This document shows positions 10,793 to 47,578 of a stretch of DNA of 64,000 nt, piece after piece. Numbering within the stretch: the first letter of the stretch is position 1; every line of letters starts with the position of its first letter. The position numbers and the translations under genes were made by a program. The notes below the pieces were generated by a model that ran no database searches, was not told where the DNA came from, and saw nothing but the letters and a program-made list of their open reading frames with translations. The stretch is from Roseimicrobium gellanilyticum. Lineage in GTDB: Bacteria > Verrucomicrobiota > Verrucomicrobiia > Verrucomicrobiales > Verrucomicrobiaceae. The DNA lies in contig NZ_QNRR01000007.1 in assembly GCF_003315205.1 (NCBI RefSeq), positions 124,001 to 188,000 of the forward strand. Reading direction: 5' to 3'.

Positions 10793-11908
10793 CTAGCCCT
10801 GGATGGCCACGGCAGGAGACATGCGGGAGGCGCGCCAGGACGGATACAGGCCGCTGATCAATCCGACCACCACAGCAATGGCCACGGAGAGAATCATCAG
10901 CTGGGGACTCAAATCAGGCTCCAGCAGACCGCGCACACTGGGCATGCGTTCCATGATTCTTACAGCCAGCGCGCCCAGTGCCACACCAACCACACCTCCC
11001 AAGAATCCCAACAGCGCGGATTCGCAGAGCACCATCTTCATGACGCGGTTCTTCTTCCAACCGACGGCCAGCAGAATGCCGATCTCATGCGTGCGCTCAA
11101 ACACGGTCATGAGCATGGTGTTCATCACACCGAAAACGCCCACGATGATGGCCAGCGTGGAGGTGCTCCAACTCATGGCCTTGACCACCTTGAACCCCTG
11201 GCTGGACTGTACTACGTCATTGGCACGGAGCGCGCGGCCTTGGGGGAAAACTTTTTTCACTTCGGCGGCGATGTTGTCGACGTCCTGCTGCGTCACATCA
11301 GGAGCGAAGCGCAGGTCCACGAAGTTCACCTTTCCTTCGTTCTGCGTGACCTTTTGCAGTACGGGAAGCGAGAGGATGATGGCGCCATTCTCCACGACAG
11401 AACCGCCGGAGACGATGCCTACAACAGCGAGTTCTTCGCTCTCTATCTGCACCGTGTCGCCCACCTTCTTGCTCATGGCGTCGGCTACGGTGACTCCCAG
11501 GACAACGGCCATTTCGTTGGCGTCATTCGGCATGCGGCCATCCACCACCTTGAGTTTATTCCAGGTAAATCCGCCCCATTCGCGCCCCGAGACCATGACC
11601 ATGTCCATGGTCTCCACGCTGATCATCTGCATCAGCACGGTGGTCGTCTCCTGCACCTTGGGGATCTTGGCGATCTCGTCCTCCAGCTTCTCGTCGAACA
11701 CCTTCGGGTTCACGGACCCGCTCATGTTGCTGACGATCATGTCGATGCCGATGCTATCAAGTTGCTCCTTGATGCTCTTTTCATAGCCGCCGGACATGCC
11801 CACGAGCGCCACCACGGCAGCAATGCCGATGGCGATGCCACACAAGGTGAGACCGGTGCGGATGGGGCGGCGCGTCAGACCGCGGCGAACGATGGTGAAA
11901 AAGGTCAT
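10793..11908 (-). CDS. ABC transporter permease, MacB/LolCE (FtsX) family
   Basis: FtsX-type permeases work mechanically from the inner membrane to move lipoproteins, peptides or lipids. The 371 residues follow the family plan: an N-terminal membrane helix (about 19-38, TLCGIAIGIAAVVALVGMS), a large periplasmic domain (about 40-240), then three membrane helices (about 252-275, 300-325, 335-360) and the closing motif PSWRASRMSPAVAIQG. It is a MacB-like permease without its own ATPase; its gene overlaps that of the ATPase by 4 bp. With a LolA-like protein encoded just upstream, lipoprotein or lipid export to the outer membrane is the best guess. Confidence 0.9.
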   Translation of the reverse strand: MTFFTIVRRGLTRRPIRTGLTLCGIAIGIAAVVALVGMSGGYEKSIKEQLDSIGIDMIVSNMSGSVNPKVFDEKLEDEIAKIPKVQETTTVLMQMISVETMDMVMVSGREWGGFTWNKLKVVDGRMPNDANEMAVVLGVTVADAMSKKVGDTVQIESEELAVVGIVSGGSVVENGAIILSLPVLQKVTQNEGKVNFVDLRFAPDVTQQDVDNIAAEVKKVFPQGRALRANDVVQSSQGFKVVKAMSWSTSTLAIIVGVFGVMNTMLMTVFERTHEIGILLAVGWKKNRVMKMVLCESALLGFLGGVVGVALGALAVRIMERMPSVRGLLEPDLSPQLMILSVAIAVVVGLISGLYPSWRASRMSPAVAIQG

Positions 11909-12630
11909 TTACTCAGGGAGATGGAAGATTCGGAGGTGCCATCGGAGACCACGCGGCCATCCTTCATGCGAATGGTGCGTCCTGCCATTTCGGCGATGGA
12001 GGGATCATGCGTCACCAACGTGAGCGTCACTTTGCGCTCCGAGTGCAGCTTCATGAGCAGCTCGAGGATTTGCTTGGCGTTCTCGCTATCGAGGTTGCCC
12101 GTGGGTTCATCAGCGAGCACGACCGAGGGACCATTGGCCAGGCCGCGGGCGATGGCGACGCGCTGACGTTCACCGCCAGAAAGCTCAGAAGGGAAATGCG
12201 TGAGGCGGTGGCCGAGGCCCACGGAGGTGAGCAGTTCCTTCGCGCGATCGGTGCGCTGAGCCACGGTAAGCCCGCCTTCAAACATGGGAATCTGCACATT
12301 CTCCAGTACCGTAAAGGTGGGCAGCAGATGGAAGGCCTGGAACACAAAACCGATGTCATGTGACCGGTAGTGTGAAGCGTCCTTCATGTCCGGAATCGAC
12401 TTGCCGCGGAACGTGAGGCTGCCTTCCGTGGGCGTCACAAAGGAGCCCAGCAACTGTAGCAGCGTACTCTTGCCGCAACCGCTCGGGCCGGTGATGGCTA
12501 CAAACTCACCCTCCCTGATTTGCAGATCCACGCCGCGCAGGGCGAGAACGTGGCCTCCGTCATAGCTTTTTTTCAGGCCCTTGGCCTCAAAGACGATGTT
12601 GTTGGAGCCGTCCGGCGATGATGCGGGCAT
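11905..12630 (-). CDS. ABC transporter ATP-binding protein, LolD/MacB type
   Basis: The 241 residues contain all nucleotide-binding motifs: Walker A GPSGCGKST at 48-56, Q-loop in the GFVFQAFHLLPTFTVLENV segment (the TVLENV hallmark of the LolD/MacB group), signature LSGGERQRVAIARGL near 150-164, Walker B VVLADEPTGNLD near 168-179, and the H-loop His in TLVTHDP. It pairs with the permease, whose start overlaps its stop by 4 bp. The homodimer would drive the FtsX-type permease. A LolA-like gene 70 bp upstream suggests one functional set. Confidence 0.93.
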   Translation of the reverse strand: MPASSPDGSNNIVFEAKGLKKSYDGGHVLALRGVDLQIREGEFVAITGPSGCGKSTLLQLLGSFVTPTEGSLTFRGKSIPDMKDASHYRSHDIGFVFQAFHLLPTFTVLENVQIPMFEGGLTVAQRTDRAKELLTSVGLGHRLTHFPSELSGGERQRVAIARGLANGPSVVLADEPTGNLDSENAKQILELLMKLHSERKVTLTLVTHDPSIAEMAGRTIRMKDGRVVSDGTSESSISLSK

Positions 12631-12700
12631 GGAGCAAACTTATGTGGGAGAGATGGAGGGAAACAGGGAAGAGAATGTGACCACCCGGGGCCGGGTGTGT

Positions 12701-13480
12701 TCAGTCTCCACCGCGTGGAGCGCTGACATTTTTCAGGCCTTCGGGTGAAAAATCAGCATCCGTGTAGCTCACCCCTCGCTTGATGCGGGAGCCGTCCAAT
12801 TCGGTGACGGTGGAGCCACGGCGTGCGCTGAGGTTGGCGGGGATGTGCTTGCCGTCATTCTGGACCACATCGGTGGTATCGATGCGCACCACGACCTCAC
12901 CAGAGGACGAGTACTTCTCCACGCGCATGGGCACCATGCGGCGCAGGTCAATCCATGTGCGCACCTTTGCGTAGGAACCCTTGCCGCCTTTGGACTCCAG
13001 GATGTGGCACTCCACCTTGTTGATGGTCTCGGTGCCGGCGAAAGCCTGGTTGTCCCAGGCAAAGAAGTTCTGTACCACATCCTCATAGGTGAGAGCACTG
13101 CCGAAGAGCGGCTGCTTCATCTGCGAGGACTCGATGGTCGTCAGCTTGTCGGGAGCAGTGAAGCTGGCTCCGCCACCACTGCTGCGCAGCAGCACGCCAT
13201 TGCCCTTCTGTTCCTTGGGAAACAGGATCTGATACACCACATCCGTGGAGGAGGCGGTCTTTCGGGACTTGATTTGCACCTGGAGGGAGGTGCCGCCGGT
13301 GTCCATCTTCAGTCGGATGAAGGTATTCCCATCCTGCTGCTGGGCGCTGAGCCTGGAGGCAAGCTCCTTGGCCGTGATGCCACCTTCCTGGGCACTGGCG
13401 GCTGGTGAAATCATTGCCGCGGCGGCGATGGCGGCGCCAAAAAAGACGGACCGGACGGGCGAGAAGAAGCTGGCTTTCAT
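12701..13480 (-). CDS. LolA-like outer-membrane lipoprotein-sorting protein
   Basis: I chose the ATG at 13480 because a clean signal peptide then leads (RSVFFGAAIAAAAMISPAASA); an upstream in-frame codon at 13555 would add 25 atypical residues. The mature part is a beta-rich domain of the LolA/LppX/VioE type: YQILFPKEQKG, VLLRSSGGG, QPLFGSALTYEDVVQNFFAWD (the S-LTYEDV segment typical of the outer-membrane lipoprotein-sorting family), VECHILESKG, RTWIDLRRMVPMRVEKYSSSGEVVV and GVSYTDADFSPEG at the end. Members carry hydrophobic molecules in the periplasm. Placed upstream of an LolD-type ATPase and LolCE-type permease. Cargo unknown. Confidence 0.82.
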   Translation of the reverse strand: MKASFFSPVRSVFFGAAIAAAAMISPAASAQEGGITAKELASRLSAQQQDGNTFIRLKMDTGGTSLQVQIKSRKTASSTDVVYQILFPKEQKGNGVLLRSSGGGASFTAPDKLTTIESSQMKQPLFGSALTYEDVVQNFFAWDNQAFAGTETINKVECHILESKGGKGSYAKVRTWIDLRRMVPMRVEKYSSSGEVVVRIDTTDVVQNDGKHIPANLSARRGSTVTELDGSRIKRGVSYTDADFSPEGLKNVSAPRGGD

Positions 13481-13636
13481 GCAGATAACTTTGTGGTCGG
13501 CTGACTGGGAATCCTCGACGGGGGCGCAAATCGTGCAACTTGAATTGATTAGCACGCCGCCGCCCCTGCTGACGAAATCGGCACCGGAACCCTTCAGGCA
13601 GGGCTCCGGTATCGTGGAAGGAGTGCGCGGTTTGGT

Positions 13637-14347
13637 TCAATCATCGTCATCGTCGTCGTCAGACTTGGTGGTGGTCGTGGTGGTTGTTTGTCGAATCACC
13701 GGTGCAGGTGACACCGCGGCCGCGGGTCTTGCGACAATCACCCGCGAAGCCACCAGTTCGTCGCCCTCGCGCACGTACTGCACGGTCACCGGCGCCCCGG
13801 GGGCGATTTGCCCCACCGCGATGGGAGTACCAGCATCATCCACATACGTGGTGCTTCCCGTCACCGCGTAGGTGAGCGGTTCGGCGCTTTCTGAGCGGAC
13901 AATCAATCGCGCACCCGGCGTGAAGTTGGTAATCACACCTCCGGCAGTGGTGGAGGCGGCTACGACCTTGCGTTCAGTCACTACAGGCGTGGATACCGCG
14001 ACGGGCGTGCTCACACTCTGCCGGACGACCACACGTGAGGCCAGCATGCGGCTGCCATCACGCACGTAGTGCACCGTGATGGGCATGCCGGAAGTCACCT
14101 TCTCGGCCAGCACGGGCGCGCCGGTTTCATCGATGAAGGTGGTTCTTTCTGTCAGGGCATAGCGAACGGGTGCGGAGCTCGATTCTTCACGCACGATGAT
14201 GGCTTCACCGCCGGGGACGTAGTCGGTGATGATGCCGCTGCCGGTGGTGGTTTCTGCGATGACGGTTTGTGCCGGGGCGATGTTGCTCCAACTAAAAAAC
14301 GTGGCCACGCTGAGAGCGCAGGCGATGGCTGACCAATGAGTTTTCAT
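13637..14347 (-). CDS. Exported two-repeat protein with poly-aspartate C-terminus
   Basis: The ATG at 14347 gives a signal peptide (KTHWSAIACALSVATFFSW...APAQ) and has AAGG-like bases (GAAAGG) upstream. The mature chain contains two copies of a roughly 75-residue module (about 32-108 and 117-195): each runs ITDYVPGG/ITNFTPGA, then a strand pair with an acidic turn, YALTERTTFIDETGAPV/YAVTGSTTYVDDAGTPI, and a VHYVRDGSRMLASRVVV/VQYVREGDELVASRVIV ending. The C-terminus is a run of Thr followed by Lys-Ser and seven Asp, the type of tail that could bind Ca2+ or a basic surface. No named family recognised. It is next to the LolA-like gene but 156 bp upstream of it. Confidence 0.7.
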   Translation of the reverse strand: MKTHWSAIACALSVATFFSWSNIAPAQTVIAETTTGSGIITDYVPGGEAIIVREESSSAPVRYALTERTTFIDETGAPVLAEKVTSGMPITVHYVRDGSRMLASRVVVRQSVSTPVAVSTPVVTERKVVAASTTAGGVITNFTPGARLIVRSESAEPLTYAVTGSTTYVDDAGTPIAVGQIAPGAPVTVQYVREGDELVASRVIVARPAAAVSPAPVIRQTTTTTTTKSDDDDDDD

Positions 14348-14648
14348 GGGGCCTTTCGGTGGGTTTGAGGGTGGTTTTAGCAAGCCCGTGCCCTGCAACC
14401 GCTGGCAGCAACAGGAGCCGCGGCGGTGCAAAGGCATCAGGCTTACTCCTCAGAATCGCCTTTGCGGAAAGCAGTGGCTGGAACCGCGCGGGAGTCCGTC
14501 GAGTGAGGAAGGGCTTTTTGGCATTCCTGCTTACGGCTGCATTTCACGTGGAGCAGTCCAAGTGTTGCGCAGTTCCGCCGCGAGCACAAAAAATGGGGAC
14601 AAGAATGTCCCCACCCCTTGAGAAGCTGTAGCTCTCAATGTGCGCAGT
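14348..14648. other. Intergenic region between poly-Asp protein gene and desaturase gene
   Basis: 301 bp without a gene. It holds the start region of the leftward poly-Asp protein gene (right of 14348) and, at 14588-14613, the terminator of the desaturase/PKS transcript. The reading frames that cross it are Arg/Pro-rich and start at unsupported codons, so I call none. Confidence 0.5.
14588..14613 (-). terminator. Rho-independent terminator of the desaturase/C-domain/PKS operon
   Basis: On the minus strand a perfect 8 bp stem (TGGGGACA, arms 14606-14613 and 14594-14601) with a 4-base loop is followed by six T. It lies 36 bp after the desaturase stop. Confidence 0.85.
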
Positions 14649-15668: not shown

Positions 15669-17015
15669 CTAGGATTTGAAGTTGGCAATGCGGTCCTCTG
15701 GTGAGCGACAGGCTTCCGCGAGCACATTCTGGTACAGAGTGTTGAGGCTTTCAACCTCGGCATGAGTGAACAACGAGGCGCGTGAGAGCCATACGATCTC
15801 CAGTGTCTCGTTCTCCTCAGTTACTTCGCATCCCAGGTCAAATCTTGCTGTACCCGTCGAGCGCATACGCAGTTTTACCGACATGCCCGGAAGATTGACA
15901 TCGGGCACCGGGTGATTTTGCAATGCGAAGCGCACGTCAAAAATTGGATTGTGCCCTGATGCAGGTTTGTCCTGCATTGCAGCTGCGAGTTCCGCGAACG
16001 GCATGAAGTTGGCAAACGAGTCCATGGTGGACTCATGCACTTCGCGGAGGGCATCGACGAAACGCTGATCACCTTTCACCTGACCGCGCAGTGGCACCAC
16101 GCCGGCCACGTAGCCCATGGTTTCCTTCACTCCGGCACGGTTGCGATTCGCGAAGGGGGTGCCCACGGTGACGTCAGCCACCTTGGTCCACTTGTTCAGA
16201 GTGATTTGGAAAACGGTCAGCAGGGCGCTGAAGAGCGTGGCGTGCGTCTTCTTCACCACTTCGCGCACGGCGCTGGTGAGATCTGCAGGAATGTGTGTCA
16301 CCCACCGTTGCAGCGGTCCCGTGTGGGACGGCGAGGCGGGAGGGCTCCACAAACGGGGAGCGCCTTCAAGCTTCGGCTTCCAGAAGGAGGCACAGCGCTC
16401 GACTTCAGCAGGTGTCCAGAAGGCGCGCTCCGCAGCATCCCACGCCCCATAGGTCATGGGCACGGGAGGCATGGGCTCGGAGAGGCCCATGAGTTCCTGA
16501 ACATAGGCGGCGCAGAGGTCCTGCACGAACACACCAAGGGTCCATCCGTCTGCAATGGAGTGGTGCACGGCAAACACCAGCAGGAGTTCATCTGCGCTGC
16601 GGCGGACCATCTCCACGCGGTAGAGCGGTCCGTGCATCAGGTCGAAGGGCTCCAGGACGATTTCCTGGATGATCTCCTCGATGGCCTCATCACTGCGCTG
16701 CTCAGGTGCCAGTTCGCGAACCTTGAAGTTCGCCTCGCCTGTGTTGCGCACCATTTGCAGCGTCCTGTCCTTGCCGGGCAGGAAGGTGATGCGCAGGGCG
16801 GACTGCCGCTCCACCACCCGTTGGATGCTGGCGCGGCACAGTTCCGCCGGCAAACTGCCGCGGACATAGATCACGCTGCAGATGTGATTCGCCGGATCGC
16901 CGACCGGTACCGGCGTGGTCTCCCACAACTCGCGCTGGGGGAAGGAGAGGGGCTGGAGGCGGATTTCTCCGCTCTCCAGCATCTGTTTGAGCCGGGCACG
17001 TTTTTCTCCTGACAT
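15669..17015 (-). CDS. Stand-alone condensation-domain (acyltransferase) protein
   Basis: NRPS condensation and PapA-type enzymes join an acyl group on a carrier protein to an amine or alcohol. Here the 448-residue protein is a complete free C-domain: QRELWE at the start (C1-like), the catalytic HHSIADG at 151-157 (His152 and Asp156 intact), and later VGTPFANRNRAGVKETMGYVAG (C5-like, with the N-R pair) and NPIFDVRFALQNHP. There is no adenylation or carrier domain. It lies between the PKS (24 bp upstream) and the desaturase. As the PKS lacks a thioesterase, this protein is the likely chain-release enzyme, forming an ester or amide. The acceptor is unknown. Confidence 0.88.
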   Translation of the reverse strand: MSGEKRARLKQMLESGEIRLQPLSFPQRELWETTPVPVGDPANHICSVIYVRGSLPAELCRASIQRVVERQSALRITFLPGKDRTLQMVRNTGEANFKVRELAPEQRSDEAIEEIIQEIVLEPFDLMHGPLYRVEMVRRSADELLLVFAVHHSIADGWTLGVFVQDLCAAYVQELMGLSEPMPPVPMTYGAWDAAERAFWTPAEVERCASFWKPKLEGAPRLWSPPASPSHTGPLQRWVTHIPADLTSAVREVVKKTHATLFSALLTVFQITLNKWTKVADVTVGTPFANRNRAGVKETMGYVAGVVPLRGQVKGDQRFVDALREVHESTMDSFANFMPFAELAAAMQDKPASGHNPIFDVRFALQNHPVPDVNLPGMSVKLRMRSTGTARFDLGCEVTEENETLEIVWLSRASLFTHAEVESLNTLYQNVLAEACRSPEDRIANFKS

Positions 17016-17039: not shown

Positions 17040-20000
17040 TTAGGCGGATGGCTTCGCGGCGGCAGTGGCTTCCGCGGTGTCATCGTCATCTCCGAGCAAC
17101 CGGTCAAGGTCGTCATCCGAGATGGCATCCAGGTCCACATCTTCCACAGGAGCTGCGACCGGCTCAGCCACGGGGGCTGCGGCAGGAGCAGCGGCACCGG
17201 CGGCCTTGGCACCACCCACGCGTTCTGCGATGAGGGTGACGATCTGGCCGATGGTACGGGCACGCATGAGGCTGGTGGGCGGCAGGGCCACACCGATGGC
17301 GCTTTCCAGCGAGTTCTCGATTTCCACGCCCATGAGCGAGTCAAGGCCGAGGTCCGTGAGCGGCTGGTCGTTGCGCAGGGTATCGGGCTTCACGCGAAGC
17401 ACGCCACCCACCACGTCACGAACGGCTTCACCGATGACGCCTTCTTTCTCCTCCGCCGAGGCGGATTCGATCTTGAGACGCCAGTCGCTGCCACCGCTGC
17501 TGGCTTCACCACCTTCAAGACCGGAGGCAAAGATGCGCTCAAGCAGCGGGTTCTCCTGCATGTTGCGGAAGGACTGGCGCCACTTGTTCCAATCCACGCG
17601 GATGGCCACGCCCTGGGCGGAGCCTGCGACGAGGAAGGACTCGAGGAGGGTGACCACTTCACCCGGAGTGAGGGCTGCCGTACCCTGGCGGGCCAGGAAC
17701 TCGGCGACCTTCTCATTGCGGGCCACGTAGCCTTCGCCACCCAGCACACCCCAGTTGATGGTAAGTGCGGGCAGGCCGAGCGAGCGGCGATGATGAGCGA
17801 GGGAGTCGAGGAAGGCATTGGCCGCCGCGTAGTTGGCCTGCGCGGGGTTGCCGAAGATGCTCGACACGGAGGAGAACATCACAAAGGCATCGAGGTCCAT
17901 CTTCGCGGTCGCCTCGTGCAGCAGCCAGCCGCCAAACGCCTTGGGCGTCAGCACGGACTGCATGCGCTCGCGGGTGAGCGCGGCGAGCGGGGCGTCGTCG
18001 ATGACCATCGCGAGGTGGAACACACCCTTGATGGGGGTCTCTTCGGAATGGCTTTCGCTGATGAGGCGCTGCACATCCGCGGGCGAGCCCACGTCTGCGG
18101 CGATGGCTTTGACCTCCACACCACGAGCGGTGAGGTCATCCACGAACTCCTGCGCGCCGGGCGACTTGATGCCGCTGCGGCTGCTGAGCGTGAGGTGACG
18201 GGCACCTGCTTGCACGAGCCACTCGGCGAGCACCTTGCCGAAGCCACCGAAGGCTCCGGTGATGACGTAGCGACCATTCGACTTCACGTCGAAGGCAGGC
18301 ACAGGGGCCTCGCCACGGCGCGGCACGAAGGCCTCGGGGAAGGAGACCACCACCTTGCCGATGTGCTTGCCCTGCGCCATCTGGCGGAAGGCGGCATCCA
18401 CGCGGCATGCGGGGAAGGAACGGAAGGGAAGGGGATGCAGCGCGCCCTTTTCGACGAGCTTGTTCACCTCACCGAGGAGCTGGCGGGCGAGTTCACCGTC
18501 ACCGGAGAACACGGCGTCCATGGCCACGACGTGGAAGGACGCGTTGCGGCGCAGCGGCCACAGCGGGATGCGTGAGTTCTGGTAGATGTCGCGCTTGCCG
18601 ATTTCGATGAAGCGACCGAACTCCGCAAGGCAGGCCATGCCCATGGGGATGGCTTCGGCCGCGAGGGCGTTGATCACGACGTCAACACCGCGGCGGTTGG
18701 TGAGGTTCATCACCGCATCCACGAAGTCGCCACGACGGGAGTCGATGACGTGGGCCACGCCCATCGTTTCAAGGAGCGCGCGCTTGGAGGCGCTGCCGGC
18801 GGTGGCGATGACCTTGCAACCGAGATGGTGCGCGATCTGAATCGCTGCCATACCGACGCCACCAGCACCAGCGTGGACCAGGATGGTCTCACCCTTGCGC
18901 ATGCGGGCCACATTCTTCAGCGAGTGCCAGGAGGTCATGAAGACCACCGGGATGGTGGCCGCCTCTTCGAAGGAGAGACCGGCAGGAATCGGCAGCACGT
19001 CGCAGCCACGGGCCAGCGTCTGCGTGGCCAGGCCGAACACGGCCAGACCATACGCACGGTCGCCCACCTTCACGTGCTTCACGTTCTCACCCACCTGGGT
19101 GATGATGCCGCCCACTTCGTCACCGAAGATGCGGGCATCCGGAGCTTCACCCGGATAGAGGGCGAGCGCCTTGAGCACGTCACGGAAGTTCATGCCAGCG
19201 GCACGAGTATCGATGACCACCTGATCTGCTTCGCAGGGCGGGTTTTCGAATGGCGTGAAGCGCAGCGTGTCGAGGTGACCACGTTCGCGGGATTCGAGAC
19301 GCAGCGGGATGGTCTTCTGCAGCCACTGCTCTTTGACAGGGCGGCCGCGATCAAGGCGCTGCACGTAGCGGGCTTCGCCACGGAAGGCGACTTCACGCTC
19401 CACATCGGTGCGCTTCAGTTCGCTGATGAGAAGGTCCACATCCGCGTCGGAGGCGACGGTCGGAAGGTCGATCGCCTTGCAGGTGATGTCGGGGTGTTCG
19501 TTGTTGAACACGCGCACCATGCCGATGAGGGGAGCCTGCACCACGGTGGTGGCGCTGTTGTCGCGACCAATCGGCTGGGCGCCGCGGGTCACGAGGTCGA
19601 AGCGGCTCTTCACGGCAGGACGCACGGCATCTTCCGCATGGGAGAGGTGCAGCAGCGCATCGGTGCCGGCGATGACTTCGTCGGCATTGCTGGGCTTGGC
19701 GGGTTCGTCGAGCGTCCAGAAGTACACGCTGCGCTCAGGCGCGGCATCCTTCGTGACGGTTTCGAGAAGCGTCTTCCAGTCTTCACCGGCTTCCGCACGG
19801 AGGGTGAATTTGTCACCGCTGGCGCTGTAGCTGTCGCCCTTGTAGGCGAGGCGCACGCGGGCACCGCCTTCGCGGAGCTTCGTAGCGAGCTTCTCAGCGA
19901 AGCCACCCTTGTCGGCGTAGAGCAGCCAGGAGGACTCCAGCGCGGCTTCTTCGGCGGGTGCTTCAGTCGTGGGGGCAGCGGCTTTCTCGGACGCCTTGCG

Positions 20001-23000
20001 ACCGAAGAGGAGGATCTGGCCTTCGCCACCACGTGGACCGGTGAGGCCGGCGAGGGAGGCGGTTTCGGCGTAGCCGGCGGACTTGATGACTTTCTCCCAC
20101 TGGGCGCGCTCGATGAGCGGCTGCTCGGGGCGAAGCTCGCGGTCGGCGAATCTCCACCAGCCGCTCGTGAGGCCGAAAGTGGACTCGGTCCACAGCATCG
20201 GAGAGCCCGTGTCCATGAAGATGAGGCTGCCGCCGGGGGCGAGCAGGTCATGCACATGGCGCAGGGACGCGGTGACATCGCTCACGGCGTGCACGCAGTT
20301 GGTGCCGATGACGAAGTCGTAGCTGCCGACGTCGAGGCCCTGCTCGGCAGGGGATTTCTCAAGGTCGAAGATCTTGCACTCCACCTCGGGGAATCCGGCC
20401 AGCTTCTGCATGGCGCCGGGGAAGAAGCCCGCGGAGATGTCCGTGAAGGTGTAGGTGTGCAGACCGCGCTCAAGGAGCGGGAGCAGGTAGGAGGCGAGAC
20501 CGCCGGTACCGGCGCCGATTTCCAGGATGCGGAGGCCACGGCCTTCGGGAAGGGCGTTGGAAGCTTCCTGAAGGGCAGCCGCAATGGCGGCGAGCCACTG
20601 GCTGGTGTAGAGGCCGTCACCGTAGAACTGGTCCAGGTGTTCGGCGCCCGCACCGGCGAAGAGCACCTGCACGGCTTCCTTCTCACCACGGAGGATGGGG
20701 CCGAGTTCGGCACACGTCGCGTGGTTGATCAGGCCTTCAGAGAGGTGACCGGGGTTGTTCTCGATGTACTTGCGAAGCGTGGGCGTCGCGTTGCTGGCTG
20801 CCTTCTTGAAGAGCGGCGTGGTCTTGTAGATCGCGCCTTCCTTCTGGATGAGACCGCGACGCTCCAAGCCCGTCATCAGGGCGCCGAAGACCGGCATGAG
20901 TGCCTCGTCGATCTTCAGCTTCTTGGCGTCGATGGTGCTCTTCACACCCATGCTCTGGAGACCACGGGCGAGGTTCGCGGCGGCGAGTTCGTCACCAGCG
21001 GCGAGTGCTTCTTCAAGCTTCTTCTTGCCACGTGCTTCGACGACCTGGTCAAGCGCGGCACCTGCGGCCTTCTGAAGCTGCGCCAGCGGAAGCGGGGCAC
21101 CCACGGTGCTCGGTTCGGCGCTGGAGGGATTGGTACGTTCCCAGGCGACCTGATAAACAAGGTCGCGCTGGCCACCAGGCGTGCCGGAGCGGCGGGCGCC
21201 GGCCACAGCGATGGCGCGGAAGCCGTCCACGAGCACGCAGGGGTTGCCTGCTTCATCGTAGAGGCCGAGTTCGCCTTCGAGGTAGTCGTCGTTGAAGCCC
21301 TGAACGCTGGCGCGGACCTGGCTGGAGGCGCCGGGCGAGCGGAGGAAGAGGATGCGCTGGAAGCGCACCGGGAGCTTGAGCTTGGCCTTGCGGCTTTCCA
21401 CCGTCTTCGCGCCTGCGGAGAATACGTGCAGGGCGGCGTCCATGAGGACGGGGTGGAGCTGGTATTCACCAGCGCGCTTGGCGGACTCCTCGGTGAGGGC
21501 CACCTTGCCATGGGACACGCCACCGGCGGCGGCGAGTTCCTTCACGCCACGGAACTCTTCGCCGTAGCGAAGGCCCATGTCGCTCATGTGCTGGTAGAAT
21601 CCGGTCAGGTCCTGCGCTGGCAGGTCCTTCGGCTTCACGTCTTCCCACTTGGTGTGCGCGAAGGTGGTTTCCGTGCGCTCACCGCGCATGGAACCGACCA
21701 CGTGCACCGACCAGGAGGCGGCGTTTTCAAACTTACTCTGGATGGAGAATGTGCGCTCGCCGGTTTCGTAGGTGATTTCGATCTGCAGACCCGCGGTGGA
21801 GTCCGGAAGGATCAGCGGCTTGCGGATTTCGAAGTCTTCCACCACGAACGGGCGGCCTTCGAAGTACTGGGCGCCTGCTTCGAGGATGAGCTCGATGAAG
21901 CCGGCGGCCGGGAAGATGACGTGGCTCTCGACCTTGTGATCCTTGAGGTACGCCATGTGGCGGTTGTCGAGGCGTGCCACCCAGGTCGGGGTGGCACGGG
22001 GCAGGCGGATGTCCAGCATGCCGCGTCCACCGTTCATGAGACGGCCATCGCGCCAGTCGGGGGACTCACTCCACCAGCGGGCCTTATCCCACGCGTACGA
22101 GGGGAGGGAAAGCTGGCGGCGGGAGGGCGTCATCGCCGCGAAGTCGAGCTCGACCGCAGCGCGGTGGAGGCCCATCACGGTGTCGAGGATGGTCTCATGC
22201 TCCTTCTCACGACGGACGGAGGAGAGCACGGGAGCCTTGATGTTCCGGGCGCCGAGGCATTCCTGGATGTTGCGGGCCAGGGCGGGGTGCGAGCTGATTT
22301 CCAGCCACACGTCCACGCCGAAGTCAGCCATCGCGTCCACGGCAGGTGCGAAGCGCACCGATTGGCGGATGCCTTTGCCCCAGTGGGTGGCGTCGCAGGA
22401 GTCACCGGCGCAGCGGTCACCCGTGACGGTGCTGAAGAAGGGAACGGTGTCCGGCAGCGGCTTGAGCTCGGCGAGCGCCTTCTCGAGCGCTTCCGAAGCG
22501 GGCTGCATGAGCGGGTGGTGGAAGGGATGGTCCACCTTCACGAGGCGGGCGAAGACGCCCTGCTCTTCCAGCTCATTCATCATCTTGGTCAGTGAAGCCG
22601 CGTTGCCCGCGAGGGTCAGCGACTTCGGACCGTTGAAGGCCGCGATGGTCACGGTGCGGTCATGACGAGCGATGAGCGCGCGAGCGTCTTCCTCGGTGAT
22701 GCCCACGGCGAGCATGGTGCCGTCACCCTTGGCGCACTCTTCCATGAAGCGCGCACGCTGCACGATGATGCGGGCGCCGTCTTCCACACTGAAGATACCC
22801 GCCACACAGGCGGCGGCGATTTCACCGACGGAGTGACCCACGATGGCCGCAGGCTCCACACCCCAAGACTTCCAGAGGGCGCAAAGGGATACCTGCATCG
22901 CGAAGATGGCCGGCTGGCCCACTTCGGTGCGCATGACTTGGGAGTCTGCCTCGGACTTGGCGAGTTCTTCGAGAAGGCCAAAGCGAGCCCAGGGACGCAT

Positions 23001-24734
23001 GGCGGCGTCGCAGCGCTCCATCATCTGGCGGAACACAGGCTCGTACTTCATGAGCTCGCGGCCCATGCCCCACCACTGGGGACCCTGGCCGCTGAGCACG
23101 AAACCGACGCGGGGCGCGGTTTCCGGGCGAGGAGTGAAGACGCTCTGCAGCTTCGGTCCGGGATTGCCGGTGGCGAAGCCGTTGAGTTCTTCGATCAAGT
23201 CATTGATGGAATTCGCCACCACCGTGGCGCGGTACTGGTGGTGGTTGCGACGAGCACCCAGGGTGTAGGTCAGGTCGGGCAGGACAGGAGAGCTGCCGTT
23301 GGCATTTGCCTTGGAGGTGAGCCAGGCGCCGAGGCGTTCCGCCGTGCCACGCAAAGCTTCTTCGGAGCGTGCGGAAATCGTCACCGGCCAGGAGCGGCCT
23401 TCGGGGACTTCCAGGTACTCACGCTGGGTGGTGTGGGGAGCTTCCGCGAGGATGACGTGGGCATTCGCGCCACCGAAACCGAAGGAGTTCACACCCACCA
23501 TGCGGGGGCCTTCTGCCGGGGCAGGGAAGGCTTCCATGGAGGTCGGGATACGAAGCTTCAGTGCTTCGAAATCGATGTGCGGGCTCGGGTTTTCGAAGTG
23601 CAGGCTCGCGGGGATCTGCTTGTGCTTCAGCACGAGGAGGGCCTTGACGAGGCCAGCCACACCAGCGGCGGTTTCAAGGTGACCAAGATTGGTCTTCACT
23701 GAACCGATGGGCAGTGGCTGGTCGGCAGGGCGATCGACGCAAAGGGCATTGGCAAGAGCGGTCGCTTCGATGGGGTCACCGACGGCGGTGCCGGTGCCGT
23801 GGGCTTCCACGAAACCGATCTGCTTCGGATCAATGCCGGCGTCCTTGCAGGCGTCACGCACGAGGCGGGCCTGGGCTTCCGGGCTGGGAAGGGAGATGCC
23901 GTTCGTATGGCCGTCCTGGTTCAAGGACGTGCCGATGACGACCGCGTGGATGGGGTCGCCATCCTTGATGGCCTGCGAGAGGCGCTTCATGAGCACCACG
24001 CCGGCACCTTCGCCGCGCACGAAGCCATTGGCTTCAGCTGCGAAGGCCTTGCAGTGGCCATCCGGGGAGAGCATGCCCGCCTGGGAGAAGCCAATGAAGC
24101 CGCCAGGGGTGACCATGATGGTCACACCACCAGCCATGGCCACGTCGCCACGATTGGTCCAGATGTGCTCACATGCCGCATGCACTGCAGTCAGAGCGGA
24201 GGAGCAGGCGGTGTCCATCGCCACGCTCGGGCCGAGCAGGTTCAGGCTGTAAGAAATGCGGTTTGCCGCGATGCTGTGCGCACTTCCGGTGGGCGAGTGG
24301 GGACTGATGCCTGCTGAGTCCCAAGGCGTGCCCTGGATGATCTGATAGTCATTGTGGGACACCCCCATGAATACGGCGATGTCCGTGCCCTTTTCGAGGT
24401 CCAGCACGATGCCGGCGTCTTCAATCGCTTCCCAAGCCGTCTCCAAAAGCAGACGCTGCTGGGGGTCGATGTAGGGGGCTTCACGTGGAGAGATCCCGAA
24501 GAACTGGGGGTCGTACTGATCGAGGCCGTCGATAAATCCACCGCGCTTGGCAATAGATTTTCCAACCAGGCCGGGTTCCTCGTCGTAATACCGATCAGCA
24601 TTCCAACGATCGGCAGGAACCTCCACCACAGCTTCACGGCCCTCGGCCAGTAGTTTCCAGTAGGACTCTACGTCATCCACTTTTCCTGGAAAACGGCAAC
24701 CGACTCCGATGATGGCAATTCCTTCTTTGGTCAT
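17040..24734 (-). CDS. Type I reducing polyketide synthase, KS-AT-DH-MT-ER-KR-ACP
   Basis: One 2564-residue module. KS (about 4-430): Cys177 in DTACSSA, EAHGTGT and KTNLGHLE histidines. AT (about 545-860): nucleophile GHSVGE near 634; HPFH in the specificity position suggests malonyl-CoA. DH (about 920-1200): HKVESHVIFP near 935 (Gly of HxxxGxxxxP replaced by Ser) and DAALH. MT (about 1400-1560): ILEIGAGTGG, so alpha-methylation is likely. ER (about 1830-2130): HAGAGGVGMAAIQIA. KR (about 2150-2340): GAFGGFGK and SSVSS...YAAAN. ACP: LGLDSLM near 2463. After it come an Ala/Pro linker and an acidic tail with DDLDRLL. There is no thioesterase or reductase domain. All reductive domains present implies a saturated, methylated chain, probably made iteratively like fungal highly reducing synthases or mycobacterial Mas. 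Confidence 0.95.
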   Translation of the reverse strand: MTKEGIAIIGVGCRFPGKVDDVESYWKLLAEGREAVVEVPADRWNADRYYDEEPGLVGKSIAKRGGFIDGLDQYDPQFFGISPREAPYIDPQQRLLLETAWEAIEDAGIVLDLEKGTDIAVFMGVSHNDYQIIQGTPWDSAGISPHSPTGSAHSIAANRISYSLNLLGPSVAMDTACSSALTAVHAACEHIWTNRGDVAMAGGVTIMVTPGGFIGFSQAGMLSPDGHCKAFAAEANGFVRGEGAGVVLMKRLSQAIKDGDPIHAVVIGTSLNQDGHTNGISLPSPEAQARLVRDACKDAGIDPKQIGFVEAHGTGTAVGDPIEATALANALCVDRPADQPLPIGSVKTNLGHLETAAGVAGLVKALLVLKHKQIPASLHFENPSPHIDFEALKLRIPTSMEAFPAPAEGPRMVGVNSFGFGGANAHVILAEAPHTTQREYLEVPEGRSWPVTISARSEEALRGTAERLGAWLTSKANANGSSPVLPDLTYTLGARRNHHQYRATVVANSINDLIEELNGFATGNPGPKLQSVFTPRPETAPRVGFVLSGQGPQWWGMGRELMKYEPVFRQMMERCDAAMRPWARFGLLEELAKSEADSQVMRTEVGQPAIFAMQVSLCALWKSWGVEPAAIVGHSVGEIAAACVAGIFSVEDGARIIVQRARFMEECAKGDGTMLAVGITEEDARALIARHDRTVTIAAFNGPKSLTLAGNAASLTKMMNELEEQGVFARLVKVDHPFHHPLMQPASEALEKALAELKPLPDTVPFFSTVTGDRCAGDSCDATHWGKGIRQSVRFAPAVDAMADFGVDVWLEISSHPALARNIQECLGARNIKAPVLSSVRREKEHETILDTVMGLHRAAVELDFAAMTPSRRQLSLPSYAWDKARWWSESPDWRDGRLMNGGRGMLDIRLPRATPTWVARLDNRHMAYLKDHKVESHVIFPAAGFIELILEAGAQYFEGRPFVVEDFEIRKPLILPDSTAGLQIEITYETGERTFSIQSKFENAASWSVHVVGSMRGERTETTFAHTKWEDVKPKDLPAQDLTGFYQHMSDMGLRYGEEFRGVKELAAAGGVSHGKVALTEESAKRAGEYQLHPVLMDAALHVFSAGAKTVESRKAKLKLPVRFQRILFLRSPGASSQVRASVQGFNDDYLEGELGLYDEAGNPCVLVDGFRAIAVAGARRSGTPGGQRDLVYQVAWERTNPSSAEPSTVGAPLPLAQLQKAAGAALDQVVEARGKKKLEEALAAGDELAAANLARGLQSMGVKSTIDAKKLKIDEALMPVFGALMTGLERRGLIQKEGAIYKTTPLFKKAASNATPTLRKYIENNPGHLSEGLINHATCAELGPILRGEKEAVQVLFAGAGAEHLDQFYGDGLYTSQWLAAIAAALQEASNALPEGRGLRILEIGAGTGGLASYLLPLLERGLHTYTFTDISAGFFPGAMQKLAGFPEVECKIFDLEKSPAEQGLDVGSYDFVIGTNCVHAVSDVTASLRHVHDLLAPGGSLIFMDTGSPMLWTESTFGLTSGWWRFADRELRPEQPLIERAQWEKVIKSAGYAETASLAGLTGPRGGEGQILLFGRKASEKAAAPTTEAPAEEAALESSWLLYADKGGFAEKLATKLREGGARVRLAYKGDSYSASGDKFTLRAEAGEDWKTLLETVTKDAAPERSVYFWTLDEPAKPSNADEVIAGTDALLHLSHAEDAVRPAVKSRFDLVTRGAQPIGRDNSATTVVQAPLIGMVRVFNNEHPDITCKAIDLPTVASDADVDLLISELKRTDVEREVAFRGEARYVQRLDRGRPVKEQWLQKTIPLRLESRERGHLDTLRFTPFENPPCEADQVVIDTRAAGMNFRDVLKALALYPGEAPDARIFGDEVGGIITQVGENVKHVKVGDRAYGLAVFGLATQTLARGCDVLPIPAGLSFEEAATIPVVFMTSWHSLKNVARMRKGETILVHAGAGGVGMAAIQIAHHLGCKVIATAGSASKRALLETMGVAHVIDSRRGDFVDAVMNLTNRRGVDVVINALAAEAIPMGMACLAEFGRFIEIGKRDIYQNSRIPLWPLRRNASFHVVAMDAVFSGDGELARQLLGEVNKLVEKGALHPLPFRSFPACRVDAAFRQMAQGKHIGKVVVSFPEAFVPRRGEAPVPAFDVKSNGRYVITGAFGGFGKVLAEWLVQAGARHLTLSSRSGIKSPGAQEFVDDLTARGVEVKAIAADVGSPADVQRLISESHSEETPIKGVFHLAMVIDDAPLAALTRERMQSVLTPKAFGGWLLHEATAKMDLDAFVMFSSVSSIFGNPAQANYAAANAFLDSLAHHRRSLGLPALTINWGVLGGEGYVARNEKVAEFLARQGTAALTPGEVVTLLESFLVAGSAQGVAIRVDWNKWRQSFRNMQENPLLERIFASGLEGGEASSGGSDWRLKIESASAEEKEGVIGEAVRDVVGGVLRVKPDTLRNDQPLTDLGLDSLMGVEIENSLESAIGVALPPTSLMRARTIGQIVTLIAERVGGAKAAGAAAPAAAPVAEPVAAPVEDVDLDAISDDDLDRLLGDDDDTAEATAAAKPSA

Positions 24735-24968: not shown

Positions 24969-26942
24969 ATGTGTGGCATTGCAGGCATGCTGGATTTGGC
25001 CGGGGAACGGGACGCGCCGGTGGACGTCGTTCGAAGCATGGCGCGTGCCATCTTCCATCGAGGCCCTGATGAAGAAGGCTTTCTTTGGCGGCCAGGGCTT
25101 GGAATGGCCTCTCGAAGGCTGAGCATCGTGGGTCTCGCAGATGGCCAACAGCCCATGTCCAATGAGGACCGCAGCGTTCATGTGGTCTTCAATGGGGAGC
25201 TGTTTGATCACCTTGAGAAGCGCGCCGAGCTCCGGGATCGGGGCCATGTACTGACCACTCATTGCGACACGGAAATCATTCCCCATATGTGGGAAGACCA
25301 CCGGGAGGGCATGTTTGAGCGATTGCGGGGACAGTTTGCCATCGCCCTGTGGGACGAGAAAAAGAAGCAACTCACCATGGGGCGTGATCGCTTTGGCATT
25401 GCGCCCCTCTACTGGAGCCGGCAGGGAGATTGGCTGCTCTTCGCATCGGAAATCAAGGGGCTGCTGGCCTCCGGCATGGTGCCTGCCCGGCCCGACCGGA
25501 GGGGCATTGATCATGTCTTCACCTTCTCAGCGATGCCGGGGCCGGTGACTTGCTTCGAAGGGGTGAACTGCCTCCCGCCTGCGCGATATCTGCAGATCAC
25601 GAAGGGCAATCGTGGCGATAATGTCACCATCCAGGAGCGAGCCTACTGGAAGATGGATTTCCCCGATGCGGGACAGGAAAGGGACGGCGATGCCAAGACT
25701 CTGGTGGATGAGTTTGAGCAGCTCATGCTCAAGGCTGTGGAGAAACGCCTGCGCGCGGATGTGCCGGTTGGCTCCTATCTCTCAGGCGGAGTGGATTCCA
25801 GCATGATTCTGGCGCTCGCCAGCCACGTCAAAGGCAAGGACATTCATACCTACACCGTGCAGGTGGATGAACCTGGTTTGGACGAACTGGATGCAGCCAG
25901 CATGGTAGCCAAGCACATTGGGACGGCGCCTCCCATCGTTCAGAAGTTTCGCACAGAGGACGCTCTCAGCACCTATCCCAGCCTCATCCGGGCGGCTGAG
26001 TGCCCGGTCATTGACACCTCCTGCGCATCGCTCCTGCAACTGGCTCACAAGGTCCACTCCAACGGACAAAAGGTCGTGCTGACGGGGGAGGGAGCAGACG
26101 AGTGGCTCATTGGTTACCCATGGTACAAGATCTCCAAGGCACTTGGTTTCCTTGACAAGATTCCAGGCGTGGAACTCAGCGACAATGTCCGTCGCGCCTT
26201 CTTGAGAATGAGCAATGTGCCGAATTTCCCAGCGCAGGTTCGGAGGGATATCGAAAAAGTCATCGGGGGCACCAATCCCTGGATTGATTCCTACGGAGTG
26301 CTTTGTGTTTCCAAACTGCGCTTTTACAGCCCGGACATGCTGGCACAGATGGACGCCACGGCACCGTGGGCCATGCTGGACATGGATCTCGATCGAGCCA
26401 CCCAATGGCATCCATTGAATCGAGGGGTCTGGATGGCGGGAAGGGTGAACCTCGCGGGCCACCTGCTCCAGGCCAAGGGTGACCGCGTGGCCATGCACTC
26501 CTCCGTGGAGGTGCGCTATCCTTTTCTGGATGAGGATGTCTTCGATTTCACGGCGAAACTCCATCCTCGCTGGAAGTTGCGTGGGTTCCGCGACAAGCAT
26601 CTGCTCCGTCTGCTGGCGGAGCGTTGGGTGCCACCGTTCGTGTATAAGCGGGGGAAGGTCATCTTCCGTGCTCCGCTGGACAGCTTTCACCTTGAGCCGG
26701 AACCCGCGTTTGTCGCTCAACTCCTCAGCGAAGAGTCGCTGCAGCGCACCGGCTACTTTGATGCCCAAGCCGTGCGGCATTGGAGGAAGGCCTATACCAG
26801 CATGCGAGCAGGGTCCCTGCCGCGCCTGTCGATCGAGATGGGTTTGGCGGCTGTCGTGGCGACGCAACTCTGGCACCATCTCTACATTGATGGCTCCCTG
26901 TGCGAGTTGCCCACGGTCGGAAGTGCTCCGGCCGCTACCTGA
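24969..26942 (+). CDS. asnB: Asparagine synthetase (glutamine-hydrolysing)
   Basis: AsnB converts aspartate, glutamine and ATP to asparagine and glutamate; relatives amidate other carboxylates in antibiotic pathways. The start is fixed by the Ntn nucleophile: MCGIAGML, Cys2. The glutaminase domain (about 1-210) has RGPDEEGF, RLSIVGLADGQQPM and FNGELFDH. The synthetase domain has the PP-loop SGGVDSS near 271-277, LTGEGADEW and EVRYPFLDEDVFDF. At 657 residues it is of standard length for the long form. It is divergent from the PKS operon by 234 bp; shared regulation is likely, so it may amidate the PKS product, but a plain amino-acid role is the alternative. No clear Shine-Dalgarno precedes the start. 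Confidence 0.92.
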   Translation: MCGIAGMLDLAGERDAPVDVVRSMARAIFHRGPDEEGFLWRPGLGMASRRLSIVGLADGQQPMSNEDRSVHVVFNGELFDHLEKRAELRDRGHVLTTHCDTEIIPHMWEDHREGMFERLRGQFAIALWDEKKKQLTMGRDRFGIAPLYWSRQGDWLLFASEIKGLLASGMVPARPDRRGIDHVFTFSAMPGPVTCFEGVNCLPPARYLQITKGNRGDNVTIQERAYWKMDFPDAGQERDGDAKTLVDEFEQLMLKAVEKRLRADVPVGSYLSGGVDSSMILALASHVKGKDIHTYTVQVDEPGLDELDAASMVAKHIGTAPPIVQKFRTEDALSTYPSLIRAAECPVIDTSCASLLQLAHKVHSNGQKVVLTGEGADEWLIGYPWYKISKALGFLDKIPGVELSDNVRRAFLRMSNVPNFPAQVRRDIEKVIGGTNPWIDSYGVLCVSKLRFYSPDMLAQMDATAPWAMLDMDLDRATQWHPLNRGVWMAGRVNLAGHLLQAKGDRVAMHSSVEVRYPFLDEDVFDFTAKLHPRWKLRGFRDKHLLRLLAERWVPPFVYKRGKVIFRAPLDSFHLEPEPAFVAQLLSEESLQRTGYFDAQAVRHWRKAYTSMRAGSLPRLSIEMGLAAVVATQLWHHLYIDGSLCELPTVGSAPAAT

Positions 26943-46501: not shown

Positions 46502-46762
46502 CTACGCTTTCGCGGCCACCGCTTCCGCAATGGTGTCCACTGAGCGCAGGGTTTCACGAGCGGCGGCGGCATCCGGGAGCTTCAGGCCGAAGCGCTTCTC
46601 CAGGGCGACCACGAGTTGCAGGGCGTCCACGCTGTCGAGGCCGAGGCCCTGGGGGCTGAAGATGAGGGCGTCATCGGCGATCTCTTCCGCGGTCTGGGGG
46701 AGCATGAGTTCTTCCACCATTGCCTGTTTGATCTGCAACTTGATCGCGTCGAGGTCTGCCAT
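46502..46762 (-). CDS. Discrete acyl carrier protein
   Basis: From the ATG at 46762 (the frame is open to 46945) the 86-residue product is a standard four-helix ACP: LDAIKLQIKQAMVEELMLP, LIFSPQGLGLDSVDALQLVVALEKRFG. Ser44 in GLGLDSVDAL takes the phosphopantetheine arm. It is last in a leftward group with a ketoreductase and two ketosynthase-type genes, so it probably serves that pathway rather than primary fatty acid synthesis. The EKRFGLKLPDAAAARETLRSVDTIAEAV end is typical of ACPs of ape/pks-like type II loci. Confidence 0.92.
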   Translation of the reverse strand: MADLDAIKLQIKQAMVEELMLPQTAEEIADDALIFSPQGLGLDSVDALQLVVALEKRFGLKLPDAAAARETLRSVDTIAEAVAAKA

Positions 46763-46796
46763 GCTGGGAAATCGGATGAAATGAGAAGGGTGGGCG

Positions 46797-47531
46797 TCAG
46801 AGAATGCCGCCGTCGATTTTGAGAGTGGCCCCGGTGATATACGAAGCCTGCGCCGATGCAAGGAAAAGCACGGCGGCGGCCACCTCTTCCGGCCTGCCGA
46901 GGCGACGCATGGGGATGCGCTGGATGGCGGCGCGCTTTTGGTCATCGGTCATGGCGGAGAGGGCATCGGTTTCGACGTAACCAGGGCAGACTGCATTCAC
47001 CGTGATGCCGGCGCGGGCCACTTCCTTGGCGAAGCTCTGAGTGAGGCCCACCATGCCGGACTTCGCGGCGGCGTAGTTGGCCTGGCCCGCTGGGGACATG
47101 AGCGCGCTGAGGGAGGAGATATTGATGATGCGGCCGAAACGCTGGCCCATCATGGTGCGCGTGACGGCACGGCAGCCGAGGAAGGTGCCGCTGAGATTGC
47201 TCTGCAGCACGTCGTTCCACTGCGCATCCGTCATGGTCGCGAGCAGGGCATCTTCGTGATGGCCTGCGTTGTTCACCAGCACGTCGAGTCTGCCACTGAC
47301 CTTCGTGATGGTCTCGACGGCAGTGGTCCATTGCTCGCTGTTCGTGACATCGAGCGGGATGACCTGACAGCGCTCTGCATGCGCTGTGGCGAGGGCTTCC
47401 GCCTTCTCTCTGCGCGAGCGCACACCCAGCCACACGTGATTGCCTTCGTCTGCTTTCAGGAAGGCCTCGCCCAAGGCCAGACCGAGTCCGCCATTTCCGC
47501 CCGTGATGAGTATCGATGCTGTGCCCGACAT
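46797..47531 (-). CDS. fabG: 3-oxoacyl-ACP reductase (FabG-like SDR)
   Basis: The 244-residue short-chain dehydrogenase reduces beta-ketoacyl-ACP with NADPH. The cofactor loop is TGGNGGLGLA at about 10-19, NNAGHH near 88, and the catalytic set Ser (INISSLSALM), Tyr and Lys (ANYAAAKSG) around 137-157. The closing VAAAVLFLASAQASYITGATLKIDGGI is the standard FabG end. It lies 47 bp downstream of the ketosynthase-like gene and 34 bp upstream of the ACP gene; it is expected to reduce the first beta-keto intermediates of this pathway. Confidence 0.92.
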   Translation of the reverse strand: MSGTASILITGGNGGLGLALGEAFLKADEGNHVWLGVRSRREKAEALATAHAERCQVIPLDVTNSEQWTTAVETITKVSGRLDVLVNNAGHHEDALLATMTDAQWNDVLQSNLSGTFLGCRAVTRTMMGQRFGRIINISSLSALMSPAGQANYAAAKSGMVGLTQSFAKEVARAGITVNAVCPGYVETDALSAMTDDQKRAAIQRIPMRRLGRPEEVAAAVLFLASAQASYITGATLKIDGGIL

Positions 47532-47578
47532 TCATCAAACATGGCGGTGATGCGGGCCAGCACAAGTCTGCCTTCGCA

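Follow-up and report, generated by a model that had tools for sequence, protein, structure and literature searches.

A conserved acidic tail motif as a putative docking element between a single-module polyketide synthase and a stand-alone condensation protein in Verrucomicrobiota

A highly reducing type I polyketide synthase (PKS) encoded in the window, the 64,000-nucleotide stretch of Roseimicrobium gellanilyticum DNA analysed here, carries behind its acyl carrier domain (ACP) a conserved acidic motif that probably captures, as a helix on a flexible tether, the condensation (C) protein encoded by the next gene, so that release by condensation would replace a fused thioesterase. In the proposed mechanism, the motif VDLDA(L/I)SDxx(I/L)DxLL would act as a short helical docking element, flexibly tethered, that holds the stand-alone C protein encoded by the tightly coupled next gene, most likely through the basic N-terminal helix of that protein and the adjoining start of its C fold. 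The docked C protein would then reach the ACP-bound acyl chain and bring it to the C active site, where the chain would be released by condensation onto a nucleophile instead of by a fused thioesterase. What we infer in this scheme is that the two proteins bind directly, which surface serves as the receptor, that one helix recognises the other, and that the chain leaves by condensation.

The PKS consists of a single module with the order KS-AT-DH-MT-ER-KR-ACP, read from its open reading frame (17040-24734, minus strand) and Pfam matches, and is probably iterative. The frame encodes 2564 amino acids with the C-terminus ...VEDVDLDAISDDDLDRLLGDDDDTAEATAAAKPSA*, and the KS match begins at residue 4, without a KS-type N-terminal docking head. 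As the first-pass annotation had recognised, no thioesterase is fused to the enzyme (Pfam, 20 families listed). The same annotation had described an Ala/Pro linker and an acidic tail behind the ACP, both of which are present in the translation, and had placed the tail at 17040-17360; since the ACP match (PF00550, residues 2436-2502, 17229-17429, minus strand) reaches down to 17229, the tail proper is 17040-17228, the remainder of that range being the end of the ACP. Behind the carrier follow, all on the minus strand, a variable Ala/Pro/Val linker (17139-17228, 30 residues here), the conserved acidic motif VDLDAISDDDLDRLL (residues 2533-2547, 17094-17138), a putative docking element delimited by sequence conservation and pLDDT, and an acidic, Ala-containing end, GDDDDTAEATAAAKPSA, with the stop codon (17040-17093), which is unconserved according to the translation and the ortholog comparison. 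The motif has the 15-residue form VDLDA(L/I)SD(E/D)(E/D)(I/L)DxLL; a DDDD run directly after this core belongs to the variable end and is not conserved. Inspected by eye over up to 220 residues downstream, the genome's other 7 of 8 carrier domains are not followed by the tail motif. Elsewhere in the window, positions 46502-49896 (minus strand) encode a second, separate carrier protein (147 amino acids, PF00550) together with a stand-alone ketosynthase (PF00109/PF02801); this may be a cluster for type II fatty-acid synthesis or of aryl-polyene-like type.

The C gene (15669-17015, minus strand) starts 24 nucleotides beyond the PKS stop, the spacing already given by the first-pass annotation. Its product, P0002, is a stand-alone protein of 448 amino acids with a PF00668 match at residues 21-445 (Pfam E 1.6e-63) and the sequence HHSIADG (16545-16565, minus strand), which we take to be the C-domain catalytic motif HHxxxDG. 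The protein thus combines the PF00668 fold with HHxxxDG, as in NRPS-type condensation domains, and a search of its relatives recognised HHxxxDG in 69 of the 71, the exceptions being L028 and the shortened frame of L124. In L124, from Chthoniobacter flavus Ellin428, the C-protein frame shuts after 49 codons while similarity runs on, which may reflect a sequencing error or a pseudogene.

Across relatives, the computed comparisons establish that the motif and the C-protein N-terminal helix are conserved, that the gene pairing is constant and that the catalytic motif is present in nearly all cases. From 110 loci, 71 PKS/C pairs were retained once exact duplicates were dropped, near-identical loci being kept; L054, L066 and L111 stand outside this set because they do not contain the anchor required for extraction, L066 nevertheless having the motif, and no ACP was obtained from L071, L105, L118, L120, L123, L024, L048 or L055. 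The core motif is present in 71/71 of these orthologous loci under a pattern that was widened after variants had been seen, while within L059-L124 a stricter pattern, fixed beforehand, matches 56 of the 61 loci that have an ACP, missing the variants L097, L112, L113 and L119 and the interrupted frame L111. In the metagenome-assembled genome G065, to which both L111 and L054 belong, a stop codon lies in the PKS frame before the ACP, and ACP and tail still match beyond it. The surroundings of the motif drift across the 71 loci: the linker ahead of it, counted from 12 residues past the T-x-G-Q anchor, varies in sequence and in length (20-33 amino acids), as does the stretch of 11-29 amino acids that leads from it to the PKS C-terminus.

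Within the motif, column information reaches 3.6, 4.2 and 3.3 bits at V/I/L-D-L, 4.0 and 3.8 at S-D, and 4.3 and 4.2 at L-L. The aligned sequences thus preserve one particular amphipathic acidic pattern, hD[LVI]xx[LI]S[DE]xx[ILV]xxLL, and not general acidity. The earlier description of an acidic tail therefore holds for the motif and fails for overall acidity and for the DDDD run, neither of which is conserved. The same pattern bears on the idea that the tail is a solubilising or anti-aggregation extension in which acidity rather than sequence matters. An average net charge of about -8 over motif plus end is what such an extension would carry, but the hydrophobic positions (V/I/L, L/I, I/L, LL) and S-D are kept and residues outside the core are not, which leaves this explanation with a very slight probability.

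The partner gene is as constant as the motif. A survey of 386 genomes of the order, queried with the C protein and with an ACP-plus-tail profile, placed C orthologues in 47 genomes at E < 1e-100 (open frames of 325-566 amino acids) and the ACP-plus-tail profile at 48 places in 45 genomes, all below 1e-64 and none between 1e-64 and the limit of 1e-18. All 45 genomes with the ACP-tail match contain a C orthologue, and 45 of the 47 C-bearing genomes contain the ACP-tail; in the remaining two, G153 and G199, the C gene lies on contigs shorter than 4 kb. Three genomes (G041, G096, G209) hold two copies of each. Each of the 71 motif-bearing PKS ends is followed by a stand-alone C protein, with an intergenic gap of -28 to +29 nucleotides in 70 of the 71 pairs. 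This co-occurrence ties the PKS and C genes together, not the tail itself. A contig profile search with the C-family alignment yielded 66 loci, many of them the same places, including Verrucomicrobium sp. BvORR106 (L059), BvORR034, Brevifollis, Chthoniobacter flavus and many metagenome-assembled genomes; the contig search with a single C sequence returned no loci. One genome (L024, identical to L071) has an intact C protein with no PKS end in the 470 nucleotides upstream on its contig. Positions 1-200 of L071 hold short direct repeats upstream of this C gene, whose PKS is lost or separated.

Further genes surround the pair. Next in the operon comes a fatty-acid desaturase/hydroxylase-like protein (PF00487, 14649-15647, minus strand), and the same operon encodes a LolA-like protein, an ABC ATPase and an FtsX/MacB-type permease (10793-13555, minus strand, Pfam), while an asparagine synthase-like gene runs divergently from the PKS (24969-26942, plus strand). 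Counted by tblastn at E no higher than 1e-8 and at any position of the locus, over the 47 of 66 loci longer than 15 kb, matches were obtained in 43 neighbourhoods for the desaturase-like protein, 44 for the ABC ATPase, 42 for the FtsX-type permease, 39 for the LolA-like protein and 26 for the asparagine synthase-like protein. These operon neighbours suggest that the product may be an exported amide- or ester-capped lipid. The asparagine synthase-like protein may provide the nucleophile for release or alter it. Between these genes, positions 13637-14437 (minus strand) encode a protein without a Pfam match that ends in a C-terminal KSDDDDDDD run, with matches in 3 of the 47 neighbourhoods; its acidic end is unlike the docking motif.

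The neighbourhood also supplies the strongest competitor for the motif, since it may dock another ACP-acting partner, such as the desaturase/hydroxylase-like protein, the C protein finding the ACP unaided. The frequency of the desaturase-like match, given above, speaks for such a partner; the gene coupled directly to the PKS, however, is not that of the desaturase, the motif becomes ordered in a model that offers the C protein as its only partner, and in three distant gene pairs the same tail type stands ahead of a C protein. Taken with these points, docking of another partner is improbable.

The C protein has only about 20 residues ahead of its C fold. They form a conserved, helix-like start of the type xDxRxRLKQWLxSGExRLQPL, represented here by the basic N-terminal helix SGEKRARLKQMLESG (16968-17012, minus strand), which is proposed as the receptor of the motif from its conservation, its charge and the structure model. 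One Leu and one Gly are invariant in this stretch in all 70 aligned loci, and its net charge is at least +1 in 68 of the 70, opposite a charge of -2 to -6 on the motif.

A search of the literature for comparable junctions turned up the beta-hairpin/SLiM class and the class 2 PKS docking domains. In the full-text literature, with most subscription papers outside this scope, neither a description of docking for this PKS family nor a helical carrier/C-domain docking pair was found. For enacyloxin, the primary docking paper is reportedly Kosol 2019. According to PMC9113145 and PMC13324335, the PCP-SLiM of Bamb_5917 recruits the betaHD-C domain of Bamb_5915 for chain release in enacyloxin IIa, and a SLiM of this beta-hairpin docking class is bound in the form of a beta-strand. 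The junction described here resembles that of enacyloxin in its terminal carrier, its flexible tether, its short motif and its separate releasing C domain, and a short linear motif does stand behind the carrier on a flexible linker, as seen in its low-pLDDT flanks; it differs in that the partner has a short basic helix only, without a detected beta-hairpin domain, and in that the motif is predicted to be helical. Membership of the beta-hairpin docking domain/SLiM class was rejected, the partner having no detectable TubC_N domain (PF18563) by Pfam at E up to 1.

A related possibility makes the tail an enacyloxin-type SLiM, with its beta-hairpin domain on another protein. The architecture is the same as that of Bamb_5917/5915 as described in PMC9113145 and PMC13324335. 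TubC_N, however, has no match above the cut-off of 26 bits anywhere in the genome, where the best score is 13.8 bits, and it is missing from P0002 even at the permissive threshold just given; the profile detects TubC_N in the C proteins of the positive-control loci L131, L189, L205 and L215, from the same phylum, at 39-58 bits. The few residues ahead of the C fold, the predicted helicity of the motif and its distance of 11-29 residues from the PKS end also count against this reading, which is left with only a marginal chance of being correct.

A second known interface, in the FR-901375 proteins PcdC/PcdK of the depsipeptide HDAC inhibitor line, relies on a beta-hairpin domain that clasps the ACP directly, and the tail there contributes modestly in vitro and is reported to be dispensable in vivo (PMC13324335). 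The present pair shares with PcdC/PcdK an interface of ACP-tail and C domain spanning two proteins and differs from it in that no beta-hairpin domain is detected on the C protein.

The preferred reading, capture of the C protein by the helical motif, was further addressed by structure modelling. An AlphaFold2 model of ACP, tail and C protein was built as a single chain, in which the PKS stop, being in frame with the C start, was read as glycine, from an alignment of 122 sequences, 69 of them with tails (L090 and L124 left out). The control, containing ACP and tail alone, used 63 sequences and also omits L060, L062, L063, L087, L096 and L104. In the joined model, pLDDT reaches 81, 90 and 78 at the blocks 111-120, 121-130 and 131-140, which hold the motif at residues 122-136, compared with 42, 60 and 59 in the control, and contact between tail and C protein is favoured in the former because reading the stop as a residue creates a 26-residue tether. 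In these models, the tail gains order, as judged by pLDDT, only with the C protein present. The flanks of the motif blocks remain at 39 and 42-46, one clear helix is predicted in the tail, at residues 129-136, and the N-terminal helix of the C protein (model residues 160-177) follows with blocks of 46 (151-160), 81 and 91. The confidence of the ACP is lower in the joined model than in the control (72 vs 89 at residues 51-60; 64 vs 82 at 71-80). In a structure comparison with the joined model, 8 of the 50 matches listed start at model residues 108-118, inside the tail; judged by their end points only, these starts would fit a tail lying in place of the N-terminal extension of some C domains. 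A Foldseek search returned nothing further on the tail.

Over 67 pairs (40 effective sequences), a test for covariation of the motif with the C protein gave no excess at the N-terminal helix (Mann-Whitney p = 0.13); the top covarying pair, D4-D281, links two columns that hardly vary and seems to be fortuitous. The proposal of the first-pass annotation that the tail recruits the C protein is accordingly unsupported by covariation; it is still the best-supported reading, because the motif is conserved, the partner gene is constant, the basic helix is conserved and the tail becomes ordered in the model.

Acidic tails facing basic C-protein starts recur in three distant PKS or NRPS gene pairs of the phylum. 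The tail ADELSDAQVDALLEKMKG (LSDAQVDALL) is paired with the C-protein start SSQAKRELLKQLARGK (KRELLKQL) in L130, SMSDDEVETLYEKLF (MSDDEVETLY) with SQAKRDALKAIL (KRDALKAIL) in L134, and QTLSDEEAARLV (LSDEEAARLV) with LTGAQRALLEKRLQGA (QRALLEKRL) in L180, and TubC_N was not found in these three C proteins at E up to 1. The TubC_N-bearing C proteins of L131, L205 and L215 come after different tails (EEFVV, KIFEL and EEEGDL, respectively), and no upstream carrier was seen for that of L189. In L178/L207 the C protein has a basic helix, yet the tail is not of the LSD type. In five cases (L137/L226, L138/L238, L186/L241, L217 and L218) a C protein begins with a basic-helix-like stretch although the gene directly upstream does not encode a carrier, so the basic helix is not specific to such junctions.

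Outside the PKS-C family, where a carrier lies directly upstream, an LSD-type tail occurs in 3 of 4 junctions whose C protein has the basic helix and in 0 of the 13 remaining ones (Fisher p = 0.006), the classes having been assigned by hand, post hoc and with the data in view, over 116 loci (L130-L135 and L137-L246) in which some places appear twice and many C domains are internal. The 13 others are L131, L151, L183, L205, L208, L210, L212, L214, L215, L216, L220, L222 and L228; they leave out 16 closely similar NRPS junctions, counted by hand, whose tails end in NRDAYRR, none of the LSD type, and the five C proteins without an upstream carrier gene were likewise left out of the test. At the NRPS junctions L214, L222 and L228, basic SPEEK-type tails (MSPEEKARLAATLRA) face acidic LLxxLL-type C-protein starts, a polarity that, going by the sequences, looks reversed relative to the PKS-C family. 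A further class of carrier-condensation docking, in which a short acidic helix and a short basic helix complement each other without a beta-hairpin domain, can be put forward tentatively, although we consider its existence doubtful. In the PKS-C family, the tail of the PKS would provide the acidic helix and the C protein the basic helix, with what looks like the opposite polarity at other NRPS junctions of the phylum.

The phylum also contains tails that precede KS heads rather than C proteins, and these bring in the class 2 PKS docking domains. In class 2 (CurG/CurH, CurK/CurL, Bamb_5925/5924), coiled-coil heads assemble into a dimeric eight-helix bundle, each partner contributing two helices and the interfaces being mainly hydrophobic with salt bridges, as described in PMC9113145 (section 7). 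The C-terminal tail here, in which the model predicts one clear helix against the two of class 2, may recall that class; the partner that follows it, unlike class 2, is a C domain bearing a single short helix, instead of an N-terminal coiled-coil head before a KS. By eye, the LSD-type tails KLSDEQLAAMVQEEM (L251) and GMSEAEMDALITQHL (L248) resemble the motif, and the KS heads at those junctions have TPLQ-type helices (TPLQNAVYLLKQAQAKL in L251 and TPLQRAVFALKQTQARL in L248), which the author's reading would assign to class 2. Sequence searches of the PDB with a class-2-like tail and head from L135 gave nothing at E up to 10, and the tie to solved class 2 structures therefore rests on by-eye reading of sequences.

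That the phylum has such look-alike tails ahead of KS heads would agree with the tail being a leftover class 2 docking tail from a modular PKS with a KS head, now without a partner. Of the six KS matches in the genome, however, the only one in a long multidomain frame is that of the PKS at 17040-24734, which starts at the KS without a head, and conservation in 71/71 loci amid drifting flanks is not expected of a partnerless relic; this reading is highly unlikely.

If the motif does capture the C protein, a compact handle of about 15 residues per side would bring a releasing C domain to a single-module PKS, a handle simpler than the beta-hairpin pair known from published docking systems. Such capture would further account for product release by a conserved Verrucomicrobiota PKS family that has no thioesterase.
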